Part shown: positions 22,754 through 25,974 of the stretch, one piece after another
Position numbering within the stretch: position 1 is the first letter of the stretch
Layout: each line of letters opens with the position of its first letter
NCBI GenBank assembly: GCA_014361015.1
Contig: JACIWJ010000005.1
Location: forward strand, 1-50,557
Direction of reading: 5' to 3'
From: Candidatus Bipolaricaulota bacterium
GTDB taxonomy: Bacteria; Bipolaricaulota; Bipolaricaulia; Bipolaricaulales; Bipolaricaulaceae
Length of the DNA stretch: 50,557 nucleotides
The notes under the pieces: generated by a model
What the model was told of the DNA's origin: nothing
Database searches by the model: none
The model's input: the letters and a program-made list of their open reading frames with translations, nothing else
Translations under genes and position numbers: made by a program

Positions 22754-23557
22754 CTATGACGGTGGACTGTGGGTCGCGGAGAGGAGGAGCTCGTCCTCGG
22801 CACACCCTTCCTGCCGGAAAAGCCTGACCAGGTCATCCACAGCCAACGCCCGTTTCTCCGTGGAAGGAAGGTCGAGGAGGATCCGGCCCCGATGGAGCAT
22901 CACGAGCCGGTCTCCGCAAGCCAATGCTTGGTCCATGCGGTGGGTGACCATGAGCGTGGCCAAGCCCCCTGCGCGGACGAGGTCCTCCGTGACCGCGAGC
23001 ACGCGCTCGGCATTGGCCGGATCGAGGGCCGCCGTGTGTTCGTCGAGGAGGAGCAGCCGTGGCTGGGCCAGGGTGGCCATGAGCACGGCAAGCGCCTGCC
23101 GCTCCCCACCGGATAGGCAGGCGACCCGCTCGGAGAGCCTCTCCTCCAGCCCCATGCCGAGCCCAGCCAGCGCTTGCTGCACCACCGTGCGGCGGCGGCG
23201 GGTCAACGGGAAGCGAAGCCCCCTCTTCCCTTTGCGCGAGGCGAGGGCGAGGTTCTCGGCGACGGTGAGGGAGGGCGCGGCCCCCTGCCGCGGATCCTGA
23301 AACACGCGTCCGATCCAACGGGCCCGGCGGTGGGTCGGCCAACCCGTCACGTCTCGACCGAGCAGGTAGACCTTCCCCTGGTCCGGGCGTGCACCTCCTG
23401 CGATCACGTTCAGCAGGGTGGTCTTCCCCGCTCCGTTGGAGCCGATGACCGTCACGAACTCCCGCTCGGCGAGGGCGAACTCCACCCCCGCCAAAGCGGA
23501 GACGAGCTGGGCACCGACCGCGTACGACTTCCGTACCCCCACAAGCTCAAGGATCAT
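22754..23557 (-). CDS. ABC transporter ATP-binding protein (TrpXYZ-type)
   Basis: GSNGAGKTTLLNVIAG, CLSGGERQALAVLMA, LLLLDEHTAALDP. Confidence 0.93.
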   Translation of the reverse strand: MILELVGVRKSYAVGAQLVSALAGVEFALAEREFVTVIGSNGAGKTTLLNVIAGGARPDQGKVYLLGRDVTGWPTHRRARWIGRVFQDPRQGAAPSLTVAENLALASRKGKRGLRFPLTRRRRTVVQQALAGLGMGLEERLSERVACLSGGERQALAVLMATLAQPRLLLLDEHTAALDPANAERVLAVTEDLVRAGGLATLMVTHRMDQALACGDRLVMLHRGRILLDLPSTEKRALAVDDLVRLFRQEGCAEDELLLSATHSPPS

Positions 23558-24438
23558 CTTGCCTCCTCCCGGTGCAGCCGCCACGCCGGGGCCACGAGGG
23601 CCCCGAGCACGACGAGGGCGGTGAGGAGCCTCAGGTCGGAGGCGGTGAACCCCACGGCTGCCCCATAGCGCAACGCGACGAGGATCGCTCCCCGGTACAG
23701 GCACGACCCGACCATCACCGCTCCCAACGCCCACAGGATCGAGCGCGGACGGAGGAGGATCTCCCCGACGATCACCGACGCCAGTCCTGCGACAATCGTC
23801 CCCACTCCGAGCCCGACGTCGGCGAACCCGGAGTGCTGGGCAGCCAGGGCGCCGGACAGGGCGACGAGCCCGTTGGCGAGCGCGAGGCCCAAGATGACCA
23901 TCCCCTCAGGGCTTGTGCCGTAGGCCCTCACCATCCCAGGGTTGTCCCCCGTGGCGCGGAGGGTCAGGCCGACCTCGGTCCGAAACAGAAGGTGAAGGAG
24001 GAAGATCGCTCCCAGCATGAGCGACGCCGCCACAGCGAGGTTGGCCGACGGCAGGGGGATCCCCCCCCACTGGGCGGCGAGACGGAACACGGATGGGCGG
24101 CCGAGCAGGGGAAGGTTGGGCCTCCCCATGATGCGCAGGTTCAGGGAGTAGAGCATGATCATCGTCAGCACCCCCGCCAGAAGCCCCTGGATGCGGAGCT
24201 TGGTGGCGAGCACCCCGGTGAATGCCCCGCCCACGGCCCCAGCGACGAACGCGATCCCGAGCGCTGCGTACGGGTTCCATCCCCCCACGATCAGCGTCGC
24301 CCCCACCGCCGCCCCGAGGGGGAACGTCCCGTCCACGGACAGATCGGGGAACGAGAGGATGCGGAACGAGATGTACACCCCGAGGGCCATCAGGCCATAG
24401 ATGAGCCCCTGCTCGACCGCTGCCATGACGATGCTCAT
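23554..24438 (-). CDS. ABC transporter permease (TrpXYZ-type)
   Basis: MSIVMAAVEQGLIYGLMALGVYISFRILSFPDLSVDGTFPLGAAVGA; typical of permeases paired with ABC_sub_bind proteins. Confidence 0.9.
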   Translation of the reverse strand: MSIVMAAVEQGLIYGLMALGVYISFRILSFPDLSVDGTFPLGAAVGATLIVGGWNPYAALGIAFVAGAVGGAFTGVLATKLRIQGLLAGVLTMIMLYSLNLRIMGRPNLPLLGRPSVFRLAAQWGGIPLPSANLAVAASLMLGAIFLLHLLFRTEVGLTLRATGDNPGMVRAYGTSPEGMVILGLALANGLVALSGALAAQHSGFADVGLGVGTIVAGLASVIVGEILLRPRSILWALGAVMVGSCLYRGAILVALRYGAAVGFTASDLRLLTALVVLGALVAPAWRLHREEAR

Positions 24439-24448
24439 GCCGACGCGC

Positions 24449-25429
24449 TCACTCTCCGGAAACGAACCGACGGCCGCCGATGAGGATCCCCGTCGCTTGG
24501 TCCAGCACCGCCTGCGGGAAGGTGAACCCGATCGCCTGCGCCGTGTCCAGGTTGAGCAGGACCTCGCGCTTCCCAAATTCCGTGTCCTTCTGGTAGATGA
24601 GCTGGATCTGATCGGGTCTCTTGCCCGTGAGGAGATCGAGCACAACCTTTCCGGTCAATAGACCGTGGCTGTAGTAGTCCCACCCCGCACAGAGCAGTGG
24701 TCCCCGTCCGATGCTGAACGGGTCGGCCATGAGGAACGGGATCCGCTCAGCGTTCGCGACCTGCACGACCCCTTCGATTCCCGCGGCGACAGTGTTGTCC
24801 GTGGTCGCGTAGAAGGCGTCCACACGCCCGATGAGGGACTGCGCGGCCAGCATCACCATGGCCGTGCTCTCCGCGGCAGCGGTCACGATCTGAAGGCCCA
24901 GCCCACCGGCCGCCTCCTGGGCCACCTTCGTCAGATAGTCGGAGTTCGCTTCCCCGGGGTTGTACACGATGCCCACCCGACGGATGGCGGGGGACAGGGC
25001 CTTGAGCAACGCCAGGTCCAACGCGGGCTCGATGAGGTCGGAGACCCCGGTGACGTTGGGGTGGCCAGTGAGGCCGTACTCCTCGGGGGCCGTGACCGCG
25101 CTGTAGACCACGGGGACGTCTGTCCCAGCGAAGACTTGGACGGCGGCGAGGGCGGTGGGGGTAGCGATGGCCACCACCAGGTCGACCCCGCGGGCCCGGA
25201 ACTCCTGAGCAATGGCGATCGCCAGAGAGAAGTCCCCCTGGGCATTCGCCAGGACGTACCGCACGTTTTCCCCTTCCACGTACCCCGCCTCGGCCAGGGC
25301 GGAGATAATGCCGTCCCGGACAGCGTTAAGCGCCTGGTGCTCAACGATCTGGGTGATCCCGATCACGATCGGTTGGCCGACGGCACTGGCCGCGCACACC
25401 ATGAGCAGTACTGCGAGTGCAACCTTCAT
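24449..25429 (-). CDS. ABC transporter substrate-binding protein (ABC_sub_bind / TrpX-like)
   Basis: Signal peptide; VIGITQIVEHQALNAVRDGIISALAEAGYVEGENVRYVLANAQGD...VDLVVAIATPTALAAVQVFAGTDVPVVYSAVTAPEEYGL. Confidence 0.9.
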   Translation of the reverse strand: MKVALAVLLMVCAASAVGQPIVIGITQIVEHQALNAVRDGIISALAEAGYVEGENVRYVLANAQGDFSLAIAIAQEFRARGVDLVVAIATPTALAAVQVFAGTDVPVVYSAVTAPEEYGLTGHPNVTGVSDLIEPALDLALLKALSPAIRRVGIVYNPGEANSDYLTKVAQEAAGGLGLQIVTAAAESTAMVMLAAQSLIGRVDAFYATTDNTVAAGIEGVVQVANAERIPFLMADPFSIGRGPLLCAGWDYYSHGLLTGKVVLDLLTGKRPDQIQLIYQKDTEFGKREVLLNLDTAQAIGFTFPQAVLDQATGILIGGRRFVSGE

Positions 25430-25444
25430 CTGTTCCTCCTCGAC

Positions 25445-25475
25445 AAAGAAAAACCCGCAAGCGTCCTGCTTGCGG
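25445..25475 (-). terminator. intrinsic terminator in 5' leader of the TrpX-like operon (candidate attenuator)
   Basis: Minus strand CCGCAAGC-AGGAC-GCTTGCGG-GTTTTTCTTT, 8-bp perfect stem, U-tract, located between leader ORF and SBP gene. Confidence 0.85.
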
Positions 25476-25518
25476 TCTCCGGGCGCACCTCTCCCCACGA
25501 GCGGAGGAGGTCGCGCCC

Positions 25519-25590
25519 CTATGCGAACCAATACCCGTAGAAGCTCGACTTCCCGGCGATCACCCCCCCGCTCATGATCATCTCTTCCAT
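25519..25590 (-). CDS. leader peptide MEEMIMSGGVIAGKSSFYGYWFA (23 aa)
   Basis: ATG GAA GAG ATG ATC ATG AGC GGG GGG GTG ATC GCC GGG AAG TCG AGC TTC TAC GGG TAT TGG TTC GCA TAG; 5 aromatic codons in 6 just before stop; promoter 8 nt upstream, terminator downstream. Confidence 0.75.
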   Translation of the reverse strand: MEEMIMSGGVIAGKSSFYGYWFA

Positions 25591-25598
25591 CACACTTT

Positions 25599-25627
25599 CA
25601 AATACGACGCCCTGGGATCCCTGTCAA
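25599..25627 (-). promoter_or_regulatory. promoter TTGACA-17-TATTTG of TrpX-like operon
   Basis: -35 25622-25627, -10 25599-25604; leader ATG 8 nt downstream. Confidence 0.75.
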
Positions 25628-25902
25628 GAGCCCTGTCCCCGCTTGGGTCATCACATGGGCACGATCCGCGTCGCGTAGCGCGATGTGCATCGTGGCCGTG
25701 CGCTTGCGAAGAAGGACTTCCACCGGCCGGCGGAGGCCGATCGTGTCGCCCCCTCGCCTGTCAGCGCTGGAATGCTGAACGCACGCTTCATTGGCCGAGA
25801 CGTGGGCGCCCTCCTGTGCACACCTCCGCCAAGGTTCCGCCCCCCAGCGTAGTCGGGCTGTCCCTGGCCTGCGGTGCACCCCACCGGGATCCGATGGGGT
25901 TG

Positions 25903-25974
<72 letters not shown>

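Follow-up and report, generated by a model that had tools for sequence, protein, structure and literature searches.

The window, a 50,557-nt stretch of DNA from a Candidatus Bipolaricaulota bacterium, probably encodes a ribosome-mediated transcription attenuator, which would sense charged Tyr, Trp and Phe tRNAs and control a TrpX-type aromatic importer. The leader is very probably a genuine, unannotated aromatic attenuator leader of phylum-wide occurrence, unusual in the apparent absence of an antiterminator. A promoter, leader ORF, hairpin, terminator, GGAGG sequence and substrate-binding gene had been reported on the minus strand in an earlier note, and direct reading confirmed each of these at its place (Table 1). 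The analysis presented here extends that description with a predicted nearly leaderless start, an internal GGNGGTGAT motif, the exact spacing between the hairpin (P1) and the Trp codon, and a phylum-wide range that includes a second architecture. A tRNA-Gln (TTG) gene is located on the leader's strand at 25902-25974, approximately 300 nt upstream of the leader.

Table 1. Features of the leader region and of the operon that follows it in the window.
Feature	Position	Strand	Remarks
-35 element TTGACA	25622..25627	-	Direct sequence reading; same place in most relatives
-10 element TATTTG	25599..25604	-	17-nt spacer from -35; start codon 8 nt further on
Leader ORF MEEMIMSGGVIAGKSSFYGYWFA, 23 codons and TAG stop	25519..25590	-	ATG at 25590; frame kept in 43 leaders, N-terminus variable
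Internal SD-like motif GGGGTGATC	25558..25566	-	Within codons 9-11; complementary to 16S 3' end
Y-W-F regulatory codons TAT TGG TTC	25525..25533	-	Conserved; TAT/TAC and TTC/TTT swaps among relatives
Hairpin P1, 38 nt	25481..25518	-	Begins directly after stop, 12 nt from first base of Trp codon; -28 kcal/mol; compensatory changes
Intrinsic terminator T, 8 bp and U tract	25445..25475	-	Stem-loop CCGCAAGC-AGGAC-GCTTGCGG at 25475-25455
GAGGAGG ahead of substrate-binding gene	25435..25441	-	Direct sequence reading
ABC substrate-binding protein, TrpX-like (PF04392)	24449..25429	-	ATG at 25429; genome's sole PF04392 copy
ABC permease (BPD_transp_2)	23554..24501	-	Domain match
ABC ATPase (ABC_tran)	22754..23560	-	Domain match

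Distribution of the leader and the genes that it precedes

Searches at the DNA level produced matches in 17 of 60 genomes, the window's own counted; the two weakest match sites (L017 and L019) were spurious. Within the window's family, a covariance model built on 15 leaders identified 26 copies in 24 of 40 genomes; it identified none in the phylum's other 60 genomes. The transporter gene is present in all 24 family genomes with the leader, and no PF04392 gene was found in the 16 family genomes without it, suggesting that leader and transporter have been gained or lost jointly. Outside the window's family, a PF04392 gene was found in 17 of 52 Bipolaricaulota genomes, each with an aromatic leader ahead of one copy (17 loci). 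The comparison therefore included 43 related leaders, 26 from the window's family and 17 from two further Bipolaricaulota families. No aromatic leader was found ahead of the distant PF04392 paralogues L145 and L147-L149, and L144 is a fragment. The 58 PF04392 loci from outside the phylum displayed only two aromatic ORFs, both of which are chance-like.

The architecture differs somewhat between families. The 5' arm of P1 is partly within the ORF in family f2, with the stop codon at or inside P1, and P1 starts slightly before the leader stop in family f5. Across Bipolaricaulota, the predicted leader, hairpin and terminator are conserved as one unit, far above chance. Two side observations concern the organization of these loci. 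One genome (L155, L156) has two leaders, each ahead of its own PF04392-type transporter gene. In f2 (L055, L057-L065, L067, L128-L143), the terminator and the transporter gene are separated by up to approximately 200 extra nucleotides, often with further inverted repeats and GGAGGTGA-like motifs.

The operon downstream of the leader encodes a PF04392 substrate-binding protein, a BPD_transp_2 permease and an ABC ATPase. The assignment to TrpX-type transporters made in the earlier note was supported by this linkage, by the PF04392 domain and by a match to the TrpX model NF041285, but the score of 190.6 bits falls below the equivalog cut-off of 390. Most of the substrate-binding protein can be aligned with 3lkv, 6hni and 3lft (E 5e-34 or better), and the importer is likely to be of the aromatic or Trp type. 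In genome L154, the order is leader L034, a TrpB-like gene that scores above the cut-offs of NF009057 and TIGR01415, leader L045 and the transporter gene. Leader L045, separated from the trpB-like stop by 9 nt, differs in its terminator stem, AGCCGCG/CGCGGCT. The presence of a leader ahead of the TrpB-like gene provides a link to tryptophan that is independent of the transporter. TrpA was found above cut-off in 7 of the 40 family genomes, the window's genome not being among these, and with TrpA mostly absent the import of tryptophan upon starvation makes sense.

Aromatic codons and a predicted nearly leaderless start

The leader peptide in the window ends in FYGYWFA. In the 42 distinct ORFs, aromatic codons account for 65% of positions -6 to +1 relative to the last Trp, as compared to 3% elsewhere. 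Tyr is found before the last Trp in 38 and Phe after it in 36 of these ORFs, and W, Y and F are all present in each of the 42, mostly as Y-W-F. Thus, the suggestion that a single peptide carries all three aromatic amino acids holds for the entire set. The leader ORF was judged to be coding from its conservation across relatives: TAT/TAC and TTC/TTT interchange synonymously and the reading frame is kept in the 43 leaders, a coding-like pattern that agrees with the earlier note, and the N-terminal residues are not conserved. Aromatic codons that are kept next to a free N-terminus fit codon sensing better than an arrest peptide. As expected for an attenuator, the predicted short leader ORF contains codons for the amino acids that are putatively subject to regulation.

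The reverse logic, similar to that of TnaC, would be that the operon is turned on by abundant aromatics, through an arrest of the ribosome close to the stop codon. Such a logic would suit a Trp-bearing leader ahead of a Trp-type transport operon, and in L022-L024 the opening of P1 could free an antiterminator, which makes the opposite logic possible there. However, the distance from Trp to stop varies from 9 to 30 nt in the 43 leaders while that from Trp to P1 is fixed, the N-terminus of the peptide is not conserved, and the scarcity of TrpA is consistent with import on starvation. We consider this reading very unlikely.

The leader start codon is located 6-11 nt past the -10 element in 40 of the 43 leaders, the exceptions being the internal copy L045 and two f5 leaders. 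This spacing places the AUG at or within approximately 4 nt of the predicted transcript 5' end, and the leader mRNA is predicted to be nearly leaderless, with a 5' UTR of 0-4 nt in the window. Inside the ORF, an SD-like motif (GGNGGTGAT-like) is present in 27 of the 42 distinct ORFs, in the window's family and in f5 (L020-L045, L133 and L142), and absent in f2. No start codon follows the motif at a usable spacing in the leader ORF. The GGNGGTGAT sequence is a near-perfect complement of what we take to be the 16S 3' end, for which the established sequence was used and not that of this genome. The motif is possibly an element for ribosome pausing or recruitment.

Geometry of the hairpin and the terminator

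Three terminator-like sites were identified, as compared to a mean of 0.2 in shuffled sequences, and a terminator is present at the matching place in all 26 family leaders. Like other attenuators, the locus has an intrinsic terminator between the leader and the structural genes. In the alignment of P1 and T, 95.9% of the cells are paired and 26 cells are changed on both sides, versus 8.8 in shuffles (0/500). The earlier note had made its reading depend on the conservation of the aromatic run and the terminator in relatives, and both are conserved in the set of 43 leaders, with covariation in P1 and T above that of shuffles. The ORF, the aromatic codons, P1, T, their spacing and the linkage to the transporter genes are thus established by comparison at the sequence level.

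In the predicted folds of the 43 leaders, P1 begins 7-13 nt from the Trp codon in all but one (mean 11.1, sd 2.1 over all), and in the outlier, L040, a Tyr codon occupies the place 12 nt ahead of P1. The gap between P1 and T is 0-5 nt, and the span of P1 itself varies from 28 to 60 nt; a second segmentation of the leaders gave much the same geometry. As judged by toeprinting, a ribosome extends approximately 12 nt past the first base of the codon in its A site. The similarity of this reach to the Trp-to-P1 spacing suggests what the conserved quantity is: a ribosome stalled at Trp would just spare P1, with T following at once after P1.

The short gap between P1 and T would also suit a pause hairpin, by which P1 holds RNA polymerase in the 5' arm of T until the ribosome comes, so that termination is set by ribosome timing. 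A pause hairpin directly before a terminator is known from the vmlR leader (PMC9226507). Pausing alone, however, explains neither how T is avoided during starvation nor the constant spacing between the Trp codon and P1. Although we regard it as rather unlikely to be the correct explanation, polymerase pausing at P1 competes seriously with steric blocking. Past the stop codon, 25 of the 26 family leaders stay open in frame 0 across T, as would be required if regulated readthrough allowed ribosomes to translate through P1 and T. But there is a stop within P1 in L041 and a tandem stop in L128, and readthrough has no connection to the aromatic codons, which makes it extremely improbable.

In the family, the stem of the terminator (CCGCAAG/CTTGCGG) hardly varies, and yet it was found nowhere else in the window's genome; that it represents a common genomic terminator was therefore rejected. 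The stem differs in L043 and L045.

Search for an antiterminator and the proposed mechanism

Analysis of duplexes with the upstream RNA of the family leaders identified no conserved partner for either terminator arm. No conserved antiterminator emerged from partition functions for three states, namely a ribosome at Trp, one at the stop and none, or from the comparison with shuffled controls. In the 43 leaders, T is predicted to form with a mean pair probability of at least 0.94 when the ribosome is at Trp and of at least 0.84 when it is at the stop; most leaders are predicted to form T even if no ribosome is present. In each of the 43, a ribosome at Trp leaves the 5' arm of the terminator with less pairing than in the shuffled controls. 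Thus, a classical attenuator of the three-hairpin form with a mutually exclusive antiterminator is not supported. The weak candidate of the earlier note, GCUUcuaCGG with CCGcAAGC, turned out not to be conserved, and no mutually exclusive fold of the kind it anticipated was conserved in the duplexes, partition functions and shuffles. Two other candidates were rejected. For GGNGGTGAT and the 5' arm of P1, pairing occurs in many cells but covariation scores lower than in shuffles, and a helix of four pairs between GUGA and the F-A codons is accounted for by coding and wobble.

An antiterminator may nevertheless have been overlooked, for example in the early ORF or as lineage-specific pairings. 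The three-hairpin arrangement is the standard mechanism for such leaders, as in mycobacterial ilvB1 (PMC13236596), and the unusual conservation of a stem that is unique in the genome looks as though it had another partner. In the window's clade (L022-L024), the opening of P1 lets the upper P1 strand pair with the 5' arm of the terminator, a possible alternative helix within a whole fold of -14 to -19 kcal/mol. However, other lineages have no such fold, neither terminator arm has a consistent partner in the family, pairing of the 5' arm falls below shuffles throughout with the ribosome at Trp, GGNGGTGAT and P1 do not covary, and the stem itself is altered in L043 and L045. On balance, an overlooked antiterminator seems unlikely.

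The mechanism that we tentatively favor is that a ribosome stalled at Trp blocks T sterically through P1, as suggested by the spacing and by the absence of an antiterminator. RNA polymerase would start nearly at the AUG, the ribosome would load at the transcript 5' end, and a leader peptide of approximately 22-34 residues that has Y-W-F at or close to its C-terminus would be translated. When aromatics are plentiful, the ribosome would proceed, invade P1 and terminate, and T would halt transcription. When aromatics are scarce, it would stall with the Trp codon, or a neighboring Tyr or Phe codon, in the A site. The front edge of the stalled ribosome would then be at the base of P1, and P1 would stay folded and absorb the slack RNA. 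Kept within 0-5 nt of T, the ribosome would prevent T from closing inside RNA polymerase, and the operon would be read. The stalling of the ribosome and the direction of the response, on at shortage, are expected from the established logic of attenuation. Since T is predicted to form by pairing alone even with the ribosome at Trp, the switch rests on the steric argument, and this model would not require so invariant a terminator stem. For a stalled ribosome that obstructs a terminator directly there is a precedent in msrDL (PMC10314930). The leaders may represent a phylum-wide class of antiterminator-free attenuators, in which the spacer is a hairpin whose length is free and which sets the codon-stalled ribosome 0-5 nt from the terminator, the ribosome itself blocks, and the adjoining Tyr-Trp-Phe codons pool the three aromatics.

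Comparison with known attenuators

A literature search gave no description of a leader peptide from Bipolaricaulota. The leader resembles the trp, phe and ilv attenuators, such as E. coli trpL, mycobacterial ilvB1 (PMC13236596) and the trp leaders of Corynebacterium and Streptomyces (PMC1262725), in the combination of an ORF with regulatory codons, an intrinsic terminator and an amino acid operon. Unlike these, the Bipolaricaulota leader has no conserved antiterminator that overlaps the terminator, is nearly leaderless by prediction, contains codons for all three aromatics and keeps a constant spacing between the Trp codon and P1. The fixed distances and the variable hairpin length predict how a stalled ribosome could prevent termination without alternative pairing, which bears on leaders that lack part of the attenuator components, a point raised in PMC1262725.

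The polycysteine uORF attenuators of mycobacteria, as cited in PMC9031893 (Canestrari 2020), are similar in being leaderless short ORFs with runs of the sensed codon, but according to that citation sense cysteine and not aromatics; in a 2005 comparison, the mycobacterial cys leaders showed no obvious terminators (PMC1262725). The T-box ahead of trpXYZ in Streptococcus suis also attenuates transcription of a related Trp transporter, but is a tRNA-binding RNA without a leader peptide (PMC9382623), and the Rfam T-box model had no match in the window or in five related regions, nor did any other Rfam family match the leader. The TrpX/PF04392 proteins (NF041285; 3lkv, 3lft, 6hni) are homologous to the product of the regulated gene, which scores below the TrpX equivalog cut-off. 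A parallel in terms of obstruction is provided by the macrolide attenuators msrDL and mefAL, for which direct obstruction of an intrinsic terminator by a stalled ribosome has likewise been proposed; these differ in that the arrest is induced by a drug, the signal is another one and, in the sections of PMC10314930 used for this comparison, no spacer hairpin is described.
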